From positions 1 through 64,000 of the forward strand of contig NZ_FNFC01000005.1 of the NCBI RefSeq assembly GCF_900100385.1: 64,000 nt of DNA. The letters are read 5' to 3'. Below, piece after piece: positions 17,701 to 28,468 of the stretch (position 1 is its first letter; each line of letters begins with the position of its first letter). The position numbers were made by a program, and so were the translations under genes. The notes under the pieces are model-generated. The model made no database searches. It was not told the DNA's origin and was given only the letters and a program-made list of their open reading frames with translations. The stretch is from Halovenus aranensis (GTDB lineage Archaea; Halobacteriota; Halobacteria; Halobacteriales; Haloarculaceae).

Positions 17701-18789
17701 TCACTCGAGGTCGGGAAGCAGAATGTTTACCCGCGTCCCGTCTCCGGACTGGTCGAAAGACAACTCACCGTCAAGACGAGTGAGACACCACTTGACAATC
17801 CAGAGCCCGATGCCGTTTCCGTGCAGGAGTTTTGTCTCACTGTTTTCGGTAATCGGTTTGAGTACCTCGCTGGGAATCTCGGAACCGTTGTCCTCGACAG
17901 AGAGTGCGCAGGCGTGTCGAGACTGTTCTGGCGTCTGAACGGCGACGGTGACCTCCGGCTCGGCGCCGTCGGTGTAGACAACCGCATTCTCGAGCAACTC
18001 GTTGAGTGCGTTCCAGAGGAGTTTCTTGTCGGTCGTGACGGTCGGAATCTCGTCGGGATAACTGGCCGAACATGACACATCCGTTCGCTCGTTGTACGCC
18101 TCAAGGATTGGCTCGACAAGCGAGTCAAGCGAGAACGTCGTCGGCTCCAGTGGCGTATCGATAGCGAGCTGTTCGAGCGCGCGCGCTTTGTCGGTCGTCT
18201 GTAGCAGTTCGTCGACGACAGACCGAATCTTCACGCCCGCCACCTCCGAGTCCTCGACATCGCCGTCGGCAAGCGAGTCAGCCGTCAGCCGTATCACGTT
18301 GAGTCTGTTCCGCAGGTCGTGTCGGAGTACCCGATTTAACACCTGATAGTACTGGTCTTGGAGTTGCTCTTTTGTCGGGTCTTCCGAAAGCAAGCCGAGC
18401 TGGCGAAACTTCGAGATTTCGTCAACCACGATAGCCAACTCGACAATCTCTCCGTCGACGATGCGATGAAACACTGCATACGGCTGTTCAATCGCGTCAT
18501 CTGTCGGTTCGACACCGTATGCCGAGTCAATCTGGTCGAGGGTTGCGGTGGCACGAATAGCAACCTGGTCGCCTTGGACGACAGTCTGTTCGACTGTCAT
18601 CTGTTCGGGGACGAACGTGCGGTCACTCTCCTCGATGAGCGCGATATATTCAGACCGTGACAGCCGCTCGCCGTTGATGATGACCGTTGCGTCCTCGGAC
18701 AGGAACTGCGTTGCTGCGGCTACCCGTGACGACTCGTTTGCCACGTTGATATACTCGTGAACGATTCGAACTTTCTCAGACACCACCAT
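17701..18789 (-). CDS. Histidine kinase with N-terminal SnoaL/NTF2-like domain
   Basis: Residues 1-130 look like a SnoaL/NTF2-type alpha+beta domain (FLSEDATVIINGERLSRSEY, VVQGDQVAIRATATLDQ), an unusual sensor for a kinase. From residue 148 a HisKA domain follows with phospho-acceptor His157 in RVLRHDLRNRLN. The HATPase has its N box (NALNELLENAV), a modified G1 box DNGSEIP instead of DNGPGIP, and G2 box HGNGIGLWIVKW. There is no transmembrane helix, so it is cytosolic. No cognate response regulator is adjacent. Confidence 0.8.
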   Translation of the reverse strand: MVVSEKVRIVHEYINVANESSRVAAATQFLSEDATVIINGERLSRSEYIALIEESDRTFVPEQMTVEQTVVQGDQVAIRATATLDQIDSAYGVEPTDDAIEQPYAVFHRIVDGEIVELAIVVDEISKFRQLGLLSEDPTKEQLQDQYYQVLNRVLRHDLRNRLNVIRLTADSLADGDVEDSEVAGVKIRSVVDELLQTTDKARALEQLAIDTPLEPTTFSLDSLVEPILEAYNERTDVSCSASYPDEIPTVTTDKKLLWNALNELLENAVVYTDGAEPEVTVAVQTPEQSRHACALSVEDNGSEIPSEVLKPITENSETKLLHGNGIGLWIVKWCLTRLDGELSFDQSGDGTRVNILLPDLE

Positions 18790-19788: not shown

Positions 19789-20061
19789 ATGACGACTGCG
19801 CCGAGTCGATTCCATATCGGGCTGTACCTCGTCAGCGTCACCGGGCTCTCGGGACTCGCTATCGGCCTCTCGTATGCCGTGTTTGCCGCCGGCCTCACCG
19901 ATGGCGTCGAGTCGTTCCTCACGGACCCGTCTGGCACCGTGCTGGGCAACCCTGTCGGCGTTCTCGGTATTGCTGGTGTGTTTGGTACCCTGTTTTGTCT
20001 GTTTGTGGCCGTCATCGTCGGCGGTGCGCGATACGCTGACCAAAATCGGCAGCGGAAGTAA
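19789..20061 (+). CDS. Small two-helix membrane protein
   Basis: This 90-residue frame has two clear transmembrane helices (about residues 10-35 and 57-80) joined by an acidic extracytoplasmic loop (DGVESFLTDPSG). The end is basic (RYADQNRQRK), in keeping with a cytoplasmic tail. The function is unknown; similar small membrane proteins are conserved in haloarchaea. It lies just upstream of the foreign CHAT gene. Confidence 0.6.
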   Translation: MTTAPSRFHIGLYLVSVTGLSGLAIGLSYAVFAAGLTDGVESFLTDPSGTVLGNPVGVLGIAGVFGTLFCLFVAVIVGGARYADQNRQRK

Positions 20062-20195: not shown

Positions 20196-22343
20196 ATGAG
20201 CCAGGATGGACTCGTATTTAACAAGCTGTCGGACACGGTTTTAGAGGTTCGAGACACCATCTCGAATCAACAATACCGTATCGAGAGTCCCGAGCCGATG
20301 GAGATAGGGCCGACCGAGTACGATGATTTCCCGGGACCAGTCACAGATACTATCGTGATTGATGCTGCTGAGCTTACAATACGCGGGGCGAGTGGGCCAA
20401 CAATCCGAGACGAAGACGGTCGTATGGAAGCACACATTGGAACGGATGAGCGAACATACACTTCCAGTGATGACAGTACATTTCTCGAACTCCATACCGT
20501 GGTAAAGACATATCTTCGGATTGACGGGCTGTTCGAATTTACGACTACAACTAATCAGGGTACTCTCAAAGCTCCAGAGGACACACGTGTAATCCTCGGG
20601 AGTCGTGCCTGGTGGTGTTATCCAACTGAGACAATCACTGTTTCTGAGTCAGTGACCGATCTTATAGATGCGGTTTCTCATTTCGGAGACTCAATCTTAG
20701 ACACATCTCCTGAACGGTCTTTTTCGACCATACGTGGCCATCCGCCACGACTACGTGTCGGAGAGTCACTGGATATCCCCGATTCAATTACAAAGCCTGA
20801 CTCTGGTATAACAATAACTGTACCCTCAACTATATCGGCAGTTCTCAGTGTCGCTCCACTCGCTTACTATTTGTCCGCAACGGTCGAACCCGGAGAAGAA
20901 TTTATTATTAGAACAGACTCTGGCTTCGCCTATCAACCTGAGTATGACTCACTTCATACTGCGGTGCAGTCTGTGCTAACCCAATGTTTTTATCTCGACT
21001 GTTTAATCAGGACCGAGGGCCTCTACCAGGTTGATTTACAAGAGCGACACGATTTTGAAGAGCGTGCCGAGACGGAGCTTGATTTTAAACATCTGTACGA
21101 ACAGACCCTCGCTAATCGGACTAAGGAATACTTGCAGATTGACTCAGATATCATTGAGAATATTACAACAGAGTGGCCGATAACAGCCGTTGTAGAACCG
21201 GGCACAAGTGCAATCGAGTCTCTGCCGTATCTAGCCTACGAACTTGCAAAAATTCGGCCGGAAAAACCACCTCGTTACACCGGTGATAAAGCCAAACGAT
21301 ATGCAATCAAATCATTCTCTAGAAGTCAGTCAGACACCCGTAGTACTACGCTCGTGTTTCAAAATGAGGCAGAATTTGTTGACGTTCCCGAGACAGAGAG
21401 CCACCAAACGATATGGGTTGGGGATGGCGTTCCACTGAATGCTATGAAGTTCGTTCGTGAGGGGTACAATCACGAGACAATTGGTAAGAAAACAGAGACA
21501 ATATTAGATGACGAAGGGGCGTCTTCATCTGAACTCGAAGTATCTGTAGTTTGCAACGGGGACACCATGGGACGAGAGCTACACGAGATTCAGAGTAGTT
21601 TGGCGCCGCGTGATGACTATTCCATTGACCTATCAATGTATTCCCAGACGTCGGCAGACGAACTCAAGCAGATCCTCGAACAAGGTGCTAGCTATTTACA
21701 CTTCATTGGCCACGCTACCCCTACTGGTTTAGAATGTACTGACGGGATGTTAGATGTCGCAACGATACATGAGAGTAACGTAACGACGTTTTTCTTGAAC
21801 GCGTGTCAGTCATATCAACAGGGCAAAGAACTCGTTAGACAGGGCAGTAGTGGCGGTATTGTTACATATAGCGATATCTCAGATAGGTTCGCGCTGGAAA
21901 CTAGTAGTTTGGTCATACAGTTGTTGAACTCAGGGTTTACCATTGGGTCCTGTCTCAATATCGTGAAAGGTACGACACCAATTGGAAGACAGTATACTAC
22001 TGTTGGCTCTCATAAGGCAAAGATAGTGCGAGCAGGAAGTATGATTCCGCACATTCGGCGTGTTTCGAAGAATGAGGAAGGATACAGTCTTAATATAATC
22101 ACAGATGGAATCTGTGGTCCCGAAGATACAGTTGGTGGACTGGTTACCCACTATATTGAGGATATGGACCGATATCGGGTCATACCTTCATCAACGACGG
22201 TCAATATCGAGACTGATGAGCTGAGGGAATTTCTGTCGGTAGATGATATCCCAGTGATTTATCAGGGGAAACTTCAGTCGAGAGCCGAGTTCTTCGAGAC
22301 GATTGAACAGGAGCCCTCCGGTAGCAATTCAAGCACTCGCTGA
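20196..22343 (+). CDS. CHAT-domain (caspase-like) protease with unknown N-terminal half
   Basis: This 715-residue protein ends in a CHAT peptidase: YLHFIGHATPTGLEC with catalytic His506, then TTFFLNACQSYQQGKELV with catalytic Cys537, and GSSGGIVTYSDISDRF of the substrate loop. The first about 400 residues are beta-rich and unrecognised, with no TPR repeats. CHAT proteases cleave partner proteins, often to trigger cell death in antiviral systems; no partner is evident nearby. The gene is visibly richer in A/T and in A/T-ending codons than its neighbours, a sign of recent transfer. Start at ATG 20196, with a TTG just before it. Confidence 0.8.
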   Translation: MSQDGLVFNKLSDTVLEVRDTISNQQYRIESPEPMEIGPTEYDDFPGPVTDTIVIDAAELTIRGASGPTIRDEDGRMEAHIGTDERTYTSSDDSTFLELHTVVKTYLRIDGLFEFTTTTNQGTLKAPEDTRVILGSRAWWCYPTETITVSESVTDLIDAVSHFGDSILDTSPERSFSTIRGHPPRLRVGESLDIPDSITKPDSGITITVPSTISAVLSVAPLAYYLSATVEPGEEFIIRTDSGFAYQPEYDSLHTAVQSVLTQCFYLDCLIRTEGLYQVDLQERHDFEERAETELDFKHLYEQTLANRTKEYLQIDSDIIENITTEWPITAVVEPGTSAIESLPYLAYELAKIRPEKPPRYTGDKAKRYAIKSFSRSQSDTRSTTLVFQNEAEFVDVPETESHQTIWVGDGVPLNAMKFVREGYNHETIGKKTETILDDEGASSSELEVSVVCNGDTMGRELHEIQSSLAPRDDYSIDLSMYSQTSADELKQILEQGASYLHFIGHATPTGLECTDGMLDVATIHESNVTTFFLNACQSYQQGKELVRQGSSGGIVTYSDISDRFALETSSLVIQLLNSGFTIGSCLNIVKGTTPIGRQYTTVGSHKAKIVRAGSMIPHIRRVSKNEEGYSLNIITDGICGPEDTVGGLVTHYIEDMDRYRVIPSSTTVNIETDELREFLSVDDIPVIYQGKLQSRAEFFETIEQEPSGSNSSTR

Positions 22344-22400: not shown

Positions 22401-23417
22401 ATGGAAATAGATGTCGAGCCTGTCGAGACGCTTGACGACATCGACACCGACAGCCTCGCTACCGGCGTCGATGCCGCCGAGTACGTCCTCTACGGCGGGA
22501 AAGGCGGCGTCGGAAAGACGACGATGGCCGCCGCGACGGCGCTTGCAAGCGCCAGCGACGGCACCGAGACACTCGTCGTCTCGACGGACCCCGCACACTC
22601 GCTGTCGGACACTCTGGAGACGGACGTTCCCGAGGAGCCGACACGGGTCCACGACGAGGTGCCGCTCTACGGCGCGGAAATCGACCCTGAGGCCGCGCTC
22701 GCGGACAGTCCGCTGGGAATGGAGGGCGGGAATCCGCTTGCCGGCATGCTCGGCGAGGACGTGGCCGACCCGCTGGCAGGGTCGATGCCCGGTGCCGACG
22801 AGGCCGCGGCCGTTCGCCTCTTGCTGGAATACCTCGACGACCCGCGGTTCGAGCGCGTCGTCGTCGACACCGCACCGACCGGTCACACGCTTCGCCTGCT
22901 GGAGTTACCCGAAATGCTCGACTCGATGGTCGGCAAGCTGATGACCGTCCGCGAGCGGATGAGCGGGATGTTCGACGTGTTCGGCGACGAGCCCGACGAC
23001 GAGGATATCGACAGCCTCAACGAGTTCTCGGCGCGCATCGAGCGGCTTCGCGACCTGCTCCGGGACCCCGCGCTGACGGATTTCCGTCTCGTGATGGTGC
23101 CCGAAGAGCTGAGCATCATGGAGTCAGAGCGGATGCTCGACCGCCTCGACGCCTTCGGCGTCCCCGTTGGGACTGTCGTCGTCAACCGCGTCATGCAGGA
23201 CCCCACGGAGGTGACCGACCTCGGTTCGGACTGGTTCGTCGCGCCCAATCACACCGACTGCGAGTTCTGTGCCCAGCGCTGGGAGGTCCAACAGCGCGCG
23301 CTCGCCCGGTCTCAGGATATCTTCCGCGGCCACGATGTCCGCCGGGTACCGCTACTGGCCGAAGAGGTCAGAGGCGAGAAACTGCTTCGTGTCGTCGCGG
23401 CCTGTCTGGCCGAGTGA
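22401..23417 (+). CDS. Get3/TRC40-like ArsA-family ATPase
   Basis: A deviant P-loop, YGGKGGVGKTT, at residues 31-41, the switch regions VSTDPAHSLSDTLE and VVDTAPTGHTLRLLELPEML, and a CxxC pair at Cys287/Cys290 (TDCEFCAQRW) identify a single-domain TRC40/Get3-type member. The CxxC motif, which in Get3 binds zinc at the dimer interface, favours tail-anchored-protein targeting over arsenite efflux, and no arsB or arsenic gene is adjacent. It is convergent with polC, 11 bp away. Full length for the family. Confidence 0.88.
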   Translation: MEIDVEPVETLDDIDTDSLATGVDAAEYVLYGGKGGVGKTTMAAATALASASDGTETLVVSTDPAHSLSDTLETDVPEEPTRVHDEVPLYGAEIDPEAALADSPLGMEGGNPLAGMLGEDVADPLAGSMPGADEAAAVRLLLEYLDDPRFERVVVDTAPTGHTLRLLELPEMLDSMVGKLMTVRERMSGMFDVFGDEPDDEDIDSLNEFSARIERLRDLLRDPALTDFRLVMVPEELSIMESERMLDRLDAFGVPVGTVVVNRVMQDPTEVTDLGSDWFVAPNHTDCEFCAQRWEVQQRALARSQDIFRGHDVRRVPLLAEEVRGEKLLRVVAACLAE

Positions 23418-23428
23418 GTGCAGAGCGG

Positions 23429-26400
23429 TCACATGAAATCGGCGATGCCTGACTGTTTGTTGGTGTCGTCTTCGAAGATACGCTCGATACGTGTTTCGAG
23501 GATTTCGAGGCGCTGTTTCGTGTACGGCCGACAGCCGAACTCCTCGGCGACGTGAATCGCGGTGTCCATGTACTTGTTGACCGACCCCTCGTGGACGGTC
23601 AGGTTGATATCGCCACCACACTCCGGGCAGTTCCCCGACAGCGGCGCACGCCTGTACTTCTCGCCACAGCCCAGACACCGGAACTCCTGGCTGGAGAAGG
23701 CCTTGAGATTCCCCAGCAGGTCTGGCAGGAAGTGGAACTCGATGATGCGCTCGGCCACGTCCGTCTGGTCGACCGCCCGGAGCTTGCGCGAGAGCGCGAG
23801 CTGGGCGTCCATCTTCTCTTGCATCGAGCCGAGCGTCTTGTATGCCGACAGGTCCGGTCCCGCCGCGAGGTCGGTCGTGTCGTGTGTATGGTCGAACCCG
23901 CTGTACTCGCGGTCGGTCCCCAGCGTCTCCTCTGCGATGGTCATCACGTCTTCGACCTCACCCGTCTCGGCGAGTTCCCGCGTCGCCTCGTAAAACGCCA
24001 GTGGATACTCGCGCATGATGTCGACGTTGTGTGCCTCGTCGTCTATCTCGGTCGGGTCGATACGCGAGGACATCACGAGCGGTGCGTCCATCTGGCCGCC
24101 TCGCTGGTCGGGCAGGAACGTCTTGCTGAAGTTCAGTAGCCCGTCGAGTAAGAGCATCACACAGTCCTCGTCACCGTCGCACTGACCGGCAAACACATCA
24201 TCTGCAACGAGGGTGTTGGTCTCCTCAACTGTGACACAGTACGTGTGGTCGATAGACGCTTCGATAATTTCCACGTCGACAACCTCGTCGAGCCATACAC
24301 CGCCTCCGTCACCGAAGAGACGCTGTGTCCGTGTCTCGATACTCTCCCGCGAATCCGAGAGCGTCTCAGATTTTCTCTCAGGATTGAGTCCCACGCGGTC
24401 CGCGAACCGAATCGCGTTCTGCGAGGTGACTTTCAGCACCCACCCCTCAGACGACTTGGGGCCGTCATAGAACTCCGCGACGGCGCCGGATTTTATCGTT
24501 TGTTCCTCTCGGTACACTTTCGTGGCGATACCGAACCGCTTGAGCGCAGCGACGAGGTCTGACTTGAGGTCGTTGCTGGCAGTGTGTGCCCGCACCCCGA
24601 CGCGGTCGCTCGCAGTGTTGCCGTCGCCCGAGAAGTACGCCGCGAGGAACGAACGCAACACGGAGTCGGGTCCAGAGAGCACACAGTCCGGGATACGCTT
24701 CGTTTCGGGTCGGCTCCCCGTGTCGAGGACATCTGTGAACAGGGTCGTCACGAGACGGCTGGAGACCGTAATTTTCCACTCGTTCTCCTCGAATGCCTCG
24801 ACGTTCAACGTCTCCGCGAGTATCTCAGTTAGCCTCGCCCGGGGTGTCTCGTCGGGGGGACAGACGGTCGTTTGGTAGAACGAGCCGTTTTCTCTCCGTG
24901 TAAATCCCTCCGCAGCGTAGTACCCGAGCAACGTGCCGACAGAGTTGTCTATTTCAAGGAAGCGGGAGACTTCCGCAGTGTCCCGTCTAACACCGAGAGT
25001 AACCGTATCTGGAACACGGTCGAGAACGGTCTTTCGGTCGAACAGGTCGAGGAGAACGTTCGCGGGGACGCTATCACGGGATACCCAACTGTACACCGTC
25101 GAGTCACTCAGGCCAAGGCGGTCCGCGACTGGTTGGAGATAGCCATCCGCGTCGGTTGCCTCGTCGAGCAGTTCCTTCAGGAGTGTCTCACCAATCCCCC
25201 GAATCATCAGGTCCTCGTCCGGGATAGAACCGGCGTCGAGGAACTCGGCAAGTAGATCAAACGTCTCGACCGAACCGTCGACGGAAATCTGCTTCGGAGC
25301 TGGTATCTCATCTCCCTCAGCGAGGGTGTTAGCTGTGACGTGCGCAACGTGGCCATCTTCCCAGCGTCGCATCGAGTGGTCCGGTGTTACGGTTAGTTCG
25401 CGGCCGCTCTTTGTCTGGACGCGCACCAGGTGGGCCGGCGACAGATGTTTCGAGACCGCTTCGACGCGCTGGAGCGTTTGGTCGCCGGTTTCTGTGACGG
25501 ACGGGACAAACACGTCGCCATCGAGATGTTGAACTAGTGCGCCGAAGTCATCCTCGTCCGCAATCTCGGGGTCAAGCCGCTCCTCGACGAGCGTCTCGAT
25601 AGAGTCGTAGTGCCAGTCGCCGCCCTCGTCCTCAAACCACACATTTGTCTCGGGATGGAAGCAGTTCCGGCGTTTCGCCGCGTGGAAGTACGGATGCGCG
25701 TAGCCAACGGCGGCGCTGGTAAATCCGACGACGCGTCCGACGACTGCCGCGCTCGTGTGAGGGGCCATCCCGAAGACGAGTTCGCCGACGAGGTCGTCAC
25801 GCTCCTCGAACTCGTAGTAGGAGTCGAGTCCGTAATACTGAGAGAGGAGGTCGTCGACGAAATCGGCTGTCTTGAGCATGTGTTCGGCCGCCCCGTCCGA
25901 GAGGACGATATCCTGGACGTTGAGCTCGACGAGCTGGTCGGGATGGCGAAGCTGGTCACCGTTGATGTCCTCGTGATATCCCAGTTCTCGGAACTGGTCG
26001 ACGGTCACGTCCAGTTCTGCCGGCCGGACCGCCGTGACGGGCAGGTCGGTCATGTCGTAGCGAATCGTGCCGTCTTTGAACGCCGATACGTCGTGTTTCG
26101 CCCGGAGAATCCCTTTCTCCAGTGGTTCCGGTGTCTTCTCCTCGGAGGTGAGTCCCTTGACGGCTTTCAGCTTCTCGAAGACGGCAGGCCGTTCGCCGAC
26201 GTTGTCCAGTGCCTGTTTGTACTCTTGCCGGAGGTGGATTGTCTCGGTCCGGGTTGGGTCGGCGAGAATTTCGCAGTCGGGACACTCCGCCCGCCCGGAT
26301 TCGTCAGGTTCGACCTCGCGGTCACAGTCCGGACAGACGTAGACCGCCTCGGCGATGTCGCCGCAGTCGGGACACCGCGCGCGGTAGGTTTGCTCCCCGC

Positions 26401-28468
26401 AGGCCCGACACTCGCGGCGGCCGACCTGTACGTCTATCTGGCCACGCGTTCCCTCGACCTCGTCGCCGTAATCGACGGCGTCGCCGACCGAGCGCTGGCT
26501 CCCGCCGGCCTCACCGATAGGGAAAAGCGTGTGAACCGCCGGCGAGAGTTCGCGTTCCTCGGATTTCTCGGGGCGGCCCATCCGGTTGCCGATACGGGTC
26601 GGGGCGCGTTCCCGGACCTGGAACGGCGCAATCTCGTTGATTGCCTCGATTGCGTTCTCGCCGTCGTCGTAGGTGCAAGCGCGCTCGCTTAACTCCGCGA
26701 GCGTCCAGGACCGCTCCAGGTCGGTATCGAACCCGAGCGTTCGGACTAACGGCTCCCACTCCGGAATCTCGATTGTGTCGTCGTGTTGGGTGTGTTCGAC
26801 GAGCAGCGTCTCCAGAGTTTGTCGGACGGTTTCCGTACGTGCGACGACCAGCGACTCGGCACGCGAGCGGGCATCCCTCTCCATCGCGCCGTCGGTCGCA
26901 ACCAGTTCTCCCGCTTCAATTGCCGTCGTGAGAGCGTCGACAGCCTCGACACTCACGTCGTGCCAGACGTAGGTGTATGCCGGATGCAAGGGCGCGTCGT
27001 ACTCGCGTGCCCACTCTAGGGCCTCTTCCGGTGTCGGTGATTCGAGGTCGACCTCGGTGCTGTCACGCATCGCCTGAACCGGCGCGCCCGCCTCGTCGAA
27101 CTCCTGTATCCACCACTCGAAGACGTAGGAGGCGGGCGCGAGCGGATGGTTGTTCTCGACGAACTCCCCGTAGTTGACGAGATACTCGCCCAAATCGAGG
27201 ATACGCTCGACGCCGTTGCAAATCTCTAGAGCCTCCTCGGCGTCGTCGATACGGCGGACTTCGCCGTTTGCGAGTCTGACCGTCGGTCCCTCGATGGTGT
27301 CGACCGGGACGACACCGGCGGCCTTCCCGGGTCGTTCGGTTTTTATCTGGGTGCCAGCGGCGAGGAAGTCATCGACCAGATGCATCGTCGCGGGGTGGAC
27401 CCCGGCGGTGGCGTGGCCGTGGTTGCGCGCCCGGCCGTATCGCAGTCGGAAGCCGCCGGACTCGCTCGGGTGTGAGAAGACCGGGCGGCCCGCAATGAGG
27501 TCCTGAAGGAACTTCTTCGAGGGGTCTGACCGTGGCGGCCCGGCAGGTTCCGGGCCCTCGTCTCCCTCGTCGTCCTCGTCGTCTTCCTCGGCCCCGTCCT
27601 CGTCGGCGCTTTCGTCTGTGGTGTCGTCGCTGTAGTTACCGTCGATGAGGTCTTGGAGCCAGGGCCAATCGATTTCGTCGAGGTTTCGGGTATAGCGCTG
27701 AATCTTGGGCGCCTTGAGCGCGATTCCCTCGCCGAAGACGAGACACATCCCACCCCGGGCCGAGTTCGTGTCGACCCGGTCGAGGTCTCGGAAGCCAGAG
27801 ACTTCCTCGTCACCGGTCGCCTCGCCGTCGAGCATGATAGGCATGTGCTCGGCAATGAACTTGGCTTCCTTCTCCTTGGGAGCGTACTGGAGGCCGGTCT
27901 CCTCGTCGTACAGCGCCACTTCCTCCGCGTAGCGGTTGATTTCGTCGTCGCGGGGTTTGTACTGGTCGATATCGAGCAGGGCGCGGGCGTAATCTGCCAC
28001 CAGCACCGACAGCGCCTGTGCGGTCCCGCCCGCCGAGCGGATTGGGCCGGCGTAGTAGATGTTGATGAACTCGGTGCCGTCGTCGTTTTCGAGTAACTCG
28101 ACGCGGTCGATACCCTCGATGGGTGCGGCCACGACACCTTCGGTGAGGAGAGCGACCGCTGTCCGGACTGCCCCTTCGATTTTGCCGGCGCGGGTCTCGT
28201 AGTCGCCGACGCTACCGTCGACGAAGTCGTCGACGAGTTCGAGCGCGGCTTCCTCGCGGGACATCTCCCCTTCGAGTTCGCGGACCCGCTCGGCGACTCC
28301 GTCGATGCCGAGGATGTTCTCGACCCGGTCAGCCATGTCCTTGGCGACCGGAATCTCGACCTCGGTCGTGGGGTCGCCGCCCCGCTCTCGGGCTGCGTTT
28401 GCGACATCGAACGCCGCATCGAGTTCGCGTTCGAGGCGCTCGAAGTAGCGTTCGTCGTCGGCGTTCAT
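23429..28468 (-). CDS. polC: DNA polymerase D large subunit DP2 with intein
   Basis: This is the catalytic subunit of the archaeal replicative polymerase D, which works with the DP1 exonuclease subunit. The precursor has 1679 residues, of which 494 are intein, leaving 1185 for the mature subunit, the usual length. Features include a zinc-ribbon block (CRACGEQTYRARCPDCGD, CPDCDREVE), the DP2 signature TVDQFRELGYHEDINGDQL, the active-site NC/DGDEDC segment split by the intein, and a C-terminal zinc finger (CLGCGEKY...CPECGG). The start lies directly after the stop of the PPC-domain gene, making an operon. Confidence 0.96.
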   Translation of the reverse strand: MNADDERYFERLERELDAAFDVANAARERGGDPTTEVEIPVAKDMADRVENILGIDGVAERVRELEGEMSREEAALELVDDFVDGSVGDYETRAGKIEGAVRTAVALLTEGVVAAPIEGIDRVELLENDDGTEFINIYYAGPIRSAGGTAQALSVLVADYARALLDIDQYKPRDDEINRYAEEVALYDEETGLQYAPKEKEAKFIAEHMPIMLDGEATGDEEVSGFRDLDRVDTNSARGGMCLVFGEGIALKAPKIQRYTRNLDEIDWPWLQDLIDGNYSDDTTDESADEDGAEEDDEDDEGDEGPEPAGPPRSDPSKKFLQDLIAGRPVFSHPSESGGFRLRYGRARNHGHATAGVHPATMHLVDDFLAAGTQIKTERPGKAAGVVPVDTIEGPTVRLANGEVRRIDDAEEALEICNGVERILDLGEYLVNYGEFVENNHPLAPASYVFEWWIQEFDEAGAPVQAMRDSTEVDLESPTPEEALEWAREYDAPLHPAYTYVWHDVSVEAVDALTTAIEAGELVATDGAMERDARSRAESLVVARTETVRQTLETLLVEHTQHDDTIEIPEWEPLVRTLGFDTDLERSWTLAELSERACTYDDGENAIEAINEIAPFQVRERAPTRIGNRMGRPEKSEERELSPAVHTLFPIGEAGGSQRSVGDAVDYGDEVEGTRGQIDVQVGRRECRACGEQTYRARCPDCGDIAEAVYVCPDCDREVEPDESGRAECPDCEILADPTRTETIHLRQEYKQALDNVGERPAVFEKLKAVKGLTSEEKTPEPLEKGILRAKHDVSAFKDGTIRYDMTDLPVTAVRPAELDVTVDQFRELGYHEDINGDQLRHPDQLVELNVQDIVLSDGAAEHMLKTADFVDDLLSQYYGLDSYYEFEERDDLVGELVFGMAPHTSAAVVGRVVGFTSAAVGYAHPYFHAAKRRNCFHPETNVWFEDEGGDWHYDSIETLVEERLDPEIADEDDFGALVQHLDGDVFVPSVTETGDQTLQRVEAVSKHLSPAHLVRVQTKSGRELTVTPDHSMRRWEDGHVAHVTANTLAEGDEIPAPKQISVDGSVETFDLLAEFLDAGSIPDEDLMIRGIGETLLKELLDEATDADGYLQPVADRLGLSDSTVYSWVSRDSVPANVLLDLFDRKTVLDRVPDTVTLGVRRDTAEVSRFLEIDNSVGTLLGYYAAEGFTRRENGSFYQTTVCPPDETPRARLTEILAETLNVEAFEENEWKITVSSRLVTTLFTDVLDTGSRPETKRIPDCVLSGPDSVLRSFLAAYFSGDGNTASDRVGVRAHTASNDLKSDLVAALKRFGIATKVYREEQTIKSGAVAEFYDGPKSSEGWVLKVTSQNAIRFADRVGLNPERKSETLSDSRESIETRTQRLFGDGGGVWLDEVVDVEIIEASIDHTYCVTVEETNTLVADDVFAGQCDGDEDCVMLLLDGLLNFSKTFLPDQRGGQMDAPLVMSSRIDPTEIDDEAHNVDIMREYPLAFYEATRELAETGEVEDVMTIAEETLGTDREYSGFDHTHDTTDLAAGPDLSAYKTLGSMQEKMDAQLALSRKLRAVDQTDVAERIIEFHFLPDLLGNLKAFSSQEFRCLGCGEKYRRAPLSGNCPECGGDINLTVHEGSVNKYMDTAIHVAEEFGCRPYTKQRLEILETRIERIFEDDTNKQSGIADFM
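24182..25663 (-). other. DP2 intein with LAGLIDADG homing endonuclease
   Basis: The intein occupies precursor residues 936-1429. It begins at Cys936 (CFHPETNVWFEDEGG) directly after RRN and ends VFAGQ before the +1 Cys of CDGDED. Splicing block B is visible (VTPDHSMRRWEDG), as are two LAGLIDADG-like helices, VGTLLGYYAAEGF and FLAAYFSGDGN. The last residue is Gln and the penultimate one Gly, instead of the usual His-Asn. Terminal Gln is known in archaeal DP2 inteins that still splice. The insertion splits the catalytic aspartate motif, so the polymerase needs splicing to be active. Confidence 0.9.

Follow-up and report, generated by a model that had tools for sequence, protein, structure and literature searches.

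The question raised by this locus is what function is served by a protein that has a recognisable His/Cys pair and an unrecognised N-terminal half in Halovenus aranensis, where an earlier note had read its gene as that of a lone, AT-rich CHAT protease which may execute antiviral cell death. The gene lies at 20196-22343 on the forward strand of the window, by which we mean the whole stretch of 64,000 nucleotides that was analysed, and it consists of an ATG-initiated reading frame that is uninterrupted over 715 amino acids. Its GC content is 47.0% as compared to 61.9% in the flanks, and the base composition is thus indeed unlike that of its neighbours. Four regions can be distinguished along the protein: residues 1-149 (20196-20642), a beta-rich region according to the modelled secondary structure, with no known fold by PDB match; residues 150-375 (20643-21320), an alpha/beta region which bears, as invariant alignment columns, the motifs SPERSxxTxRGHPP (172-184), APLAYYL (220-226) and LDCLxRTEGLY (267-277); residues 376-445 (21321-21530), a variable, low-confidence linker with pLDDT below 50 at 380-383 and 430-444; and residues 446-610 (21531-22025), the protease core as delimited by Pfam, the AlphaFold model and fold search.

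Pfam matches of the window protein, Peptidase_C25 at E 0.004 and CHAT at E 0.27, were both sub-threshold and confined to residues 460-540, the CHAT score of 11.1 bits being below the curated cut-off of 24; the best Pfam CHAT match among 65 family members had an E value of 0.0015, and a comparison of the window protein with NCBIfam gave no match. The proposed CHAT-type identity was nevertheless supported by the predicted fold. An AlphaFold2 model of the 715-residue protein, built with 64 relatives, had a mean pLDDT of 86.9 and a pTM of 0.89, and Foldseek comparison of this model with the PDB returned 23 matches at E<=0.001, every one of which was SAVED-CHAT, gingipain R, separase or Csx29, placing the model within the caspase-haemoglobinase fold. 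As the matches at this threshold were exclusively of the CHAT/gingipain/separase type, the protease reading is considered sound. The model places the catalytic dyad where two successive core strands (498-508 and 529-537) end, and its residues, His506 (in HFIGH; codon at 21711-21713) and Cys537 (in LNACQS; codon at 21804-21806), are invariant across 65 aligned relatives, a conservation that is biased by the collection of this set partly through the two catalytic motifs. Greater weight is carried by a less biased sample of 33 further relatives, in which both residues were kept in 17, both were lost in 14 and one was lost in two. Conservation of the pair among homologues, which the earlier note had made decisive, accordingly holds for the main classes and fails for one paralogue class that has lost both residues, while in the class of the window copy the residues around His506 and Cys537 rank with the best conserved. 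We conclude that the window gene encodes an intact CHAT/separase-type cysteine protease, its activity being predicted from the model.

The N-terminal half is as unrecognised as had been claimed. Residues 1-392, although modelled with a pLDDT of 87.1 on their own, gave no match at E<=0.001 to Pfam or to PDB folds, the best fold match (E 0.015, with low TM-scores) and the single profile match among solved chains (E 0.25) both representing chance; no housekeeping family was matched that would overturn the earlier reading. The suggestion that a single protein combines sensor and protease stands in so far as a protease and an unrecognised N-terminal half share one polypeptide. In this respect the protein may be likened to SAVED-CHAT (PDB 8tl0), which joins sensor and protease in the same manner and scores best among the fold matches to the protease part (E 2.5e-07, with some 14-18% identity in the matched region); however, no SAVED domain was detected in residues 1-392 by Pfam, PDB profile or fold searches, and CRISPR genes are absent from the window locus. 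Csx29/TPR-CHAT of Craspase (PDB 7zoq; fold match E 1.2e-04) shares the His/Cys-dyad CHAT protease, but the window protein has neither a recognised TPR region nor a Cas7-11 partner. Separase, with fold matches down to E 4e-06, likewise carries an acid beyond the next strand downstream of the catalytic Cys, yet the window protein is far shorter, its N-terminal half is unrelated by the searches made, and the securin-like partner of separase has no known counterpart for it. Gingipain R (Peptidase C25) matches in fold at E 1.4e-06, with the weak, sub-cut-off Pfam match at E 0.004, and differs in being a secreted virulence protease.

The description of the gene as a lone one did not survive comparison with other genomes. 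Membership of a wider family was established over the full length of the window protein by the N-terminal motifs SPERSxxTxRGHPP and LDCLxRTEGLY together with the protease core, and the host itself was found to encode a paralogue (G000:C22:82650-84656) that is 32% identical to the window protein. Of the 146 genomes from the host's taxonomic family, 130 encode at least one family copy and some as many as nine. When 295 genomes were sampled across the phylum, members were found in 46 of the 53 belonging to the host's order (one to nine copies each) and, outside the order, in four from a single further archaeal family. Nearly every sampled haloarchaeon thus carries members. Some copies lie on large plasmids, where the usual annotation is hypothetical, with one entry labelled caspase family and another CHAT. 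Nor is AT-richness shared across the family, as the GC difference from the surroundings averaged just 0.005 across 84 family loci and exceeded 0.05 in only 8% of them. These proteins constitute a largely undescribed protease family that is near-universal among haloarchaea.

Within this family the window copy occupies a particular position. In a FastTree tree, whose long branches make deep placements unsure, it clusters with six further copies from the Halovenus group (support of 99), while the host's second copy falls in a separate Haloarcula-type clade. Halovenus salina carries the protease at the same site, where it is 53% identical at the amino acid level as compared to 80-98% for six flanking genes; the protease has a dN of 0.37 with saturated dS (3.4), against a dN of 0.009-0.28 and a dS of 0.34-1.2 for the flanking genes. 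At the same site in H. rubra, between the membrane gene and arsA, only a decayed pseudogene remnant is left (L115 1101-1393), which matches residues 1-55 and 237-289 and contains an in-frame stop. The syntenic gene in H. salina and the remnant in H. rubra together indicate that the gene was present in a common ancestor and is dispensable, and they rule out a recent insertion. The downstream flank is a conserved ArsA-type ATPase gene (22401-23417, forward strand), assigned by Pfam and synteny. The window copy is best read from these data as an accessory member of the family that stands alone and diverges fast while occupying a stable chromosomal site. Upstream lies a small membrane protein gene (19789-20061, forward strand), the one further gene here that diverges fast, at 57% identity to H. 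salina. It adjoins the protease in four Halovenus genomes, in one of which (G108) the two genes are adjacent although those further upstream differ; its product as an obligate partner is unsupported, the gene occurring without the protease in other Halovenus.

Such divergence is also what would be expected if the protein served in abortive infection, its N-terminal half sensing infection and its protease arresting or killing the cell, with the AT-rich, diverged copy as an arms-race version. Bacterial CHAT proteases act in CRISPR-linked defence (PMC9729208; 8tl0), and the low identity to H. salina relative to the neighbouring genes, the loss in H. rubra, the AT-richness in the window and the occurrence of family copies on large plasmids are all in keeping with this explanation. 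The synonymous sites are, however, also unusually diverged, so that replacement by a diverged allele explains the pattern as well as fast selection does and without an arms race. Moreover, PADLOC gave no match for the window protein, its neighbours are housekeeping genes, no clear defence genes were seen beside the sampled relatives, and a sequence search of viral contigs and phage records found no relatives; a viral structure library yielded two matches at E about 2e-4. That the family is near-universal, has a conserved member in most genomes and lacks AT-richness overall is likewise at odds with a defence gene. The antiviral reading of the earlier note is hence unsupported, and while a defence role of the window copy is possible, we consider it unlikely.

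When the neighbourhoods of homologues were surveyed, as had been suggested earlier, the strongest signal was one of signal transduction. The commonest shared neighbour is DUF7504, a protein of approximately 240 residues which we read as an inactivated-KaiC-like family and which is encoded directly upstream on the same strand, with a median gap of about 50 bp, in 34 of 85 loci (32 by rule and two more with over-long ORF calls). The adjacency changes nine times on the tree. Since genomes of the window's genus contain just four to eight DUF7504 genes among what we take to be some 3,000 genes, the association is far above chance. REC-PAS proteins are encoded downstream of the host's second copy and of Haloarcula copies, and HalX response regulators adjoin Haloferax and Natrialbaceae copies, the Haloferax and Haloarcula links being partly shared by descent. 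In the Natrialbaceae loci L096, L097, L100 and L103 DUF7504 is followed by two tandem family copies, which in L096 are separated by a HalX gene. Elsewhere (L091) DUF7504 is fused C-terminally to a HalOD1 domain in one protein, which recalls the HalOD1/KaiC-like modules of haloarchaea, for which the passages located in PMC5847659 name no CHAT protease output. The window copy differs from these relatives in having no DUF7504, REC-PAS or HalX gene beside it, and this counts against a signalling model for the window copy itself.

We regard it as probable, though by no means assured, that the protein is a regulated CHAT protease, that the family serves haloarchaeal KaiC/two-component signalling and that the copy in the window is an accessory form which evolves fast. 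The N-terminal residues, some 390 in number, would form a family-specific regulatory half that keeps the protease inactive until a signal or the contact of a partner releases it, allosteric switching of the dyad having a precedent in TPR-CHAT (PMC9729208). Across the family the input would probably come from DUF7504 encoded just upstream, or from the adjacent REC-PAS or HalX regulators. Once activated, the protease may cleave a single host protein or a small number of them, with the cut most likely following a basic residue, as part of a stress or programmed response.

The paralogues that lack both catalytic residues bear on the role of the N-terminal half. All 14 retain it, with matches at E near 1e-100, which suggests at the level of sequence that this half has a function of its own. 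Paralogues of this kind (L133-L139, L166, L168, L171 and L173) are often accompanied by an active copy in the same genome. Such a pairing of an active with a dead form was read in four genomes belonging to one genus, and further genomes of that genus show the same pair of matches. No DUF7504 was found within the 4-7 kb examined beside any of the dead forms checked. If the N-terminal half did all the work, as a non-enzymatic scaffold or receptor, the protease would be dispensable, and the retention of this half in the 14 dead paralogues is consistent with such a role; the conserved surroundings of His506 and Cys537 in the window copy's class, and the status of the dead forms as a separate class co-occurring with an active copy in the four genomes checked, make it highly improbable. 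The dead copies perhaps regulate the active ones.

A preference for basic residues is suggested by position 560 (Asp560 in the window protein, codon at 21873-21875), a candidate substrate-pocket acid which lies after the strand following Cys537, placed there by motif only. Separase binds P1 arginine via the acid D2151, and a lysine is found at this position in TPR-CHAT (PMC9729208), whereas position 560 is acidic in 60 of the 65 aligned sequences (D in 40, E in 20), pointing to a basic P1 for the family. This bears on whether these proteins could be housekeeping or stress proteases that contribute to the caspase-like activity of haloarchaea. Haloferax volcanii is reported to show a high caspase-like activity that has no known gene and is tied to salt stress (PMC3615174), the family occurs in all 12 Haloferax records found and in one to nine copies per genome in the order, and the fold is caspase-related. 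The conserved acid would, as a mild argument, favour a basic and not an acidic P1, and proteasomes were also considered as a source of the activity by the authors of that work (PMC3615174); we therefore judge such a contribution to be very unlikely.

Haloarchaea possess a strong caspase-like activity with no assigned gene and a large KaiC-based apparatus whose outputs are mostly unknown, and a multi-copy, near-universal family that often follows an inactivated-KaiC-like gene and has dead as well as active members opens both questions to gene-deletion tests in Haloferax. What the window itself contributes is more limited, as it holds a single fast-diverging accessory copy. In its broadest form the signalling reading would be an order-wide network in which KaiC-like/HalOD1 and two-component hubs turn separase-like CHAT proteases on and off, dead paralogues regulate them, and self-contained accessory copies such as that of the window serve programmed dormancy or death as sensor-proteases that diversify quickly; this is speculative and, in our estimation, rather improbable.

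A sigma-70 promoter and terminator scan of the locus, with models that are ill-suited to archaea, gave results at chance level. Further out, the reverse strand carries the DNA polymerase II large subunit (PolD-type; 23429-28468, 1679 residues) with an apparent intein, as read from sequence, and a histidine kinase (17701-18789), conserved in H. salina, whose N-terminal domain is SnoaL-like.
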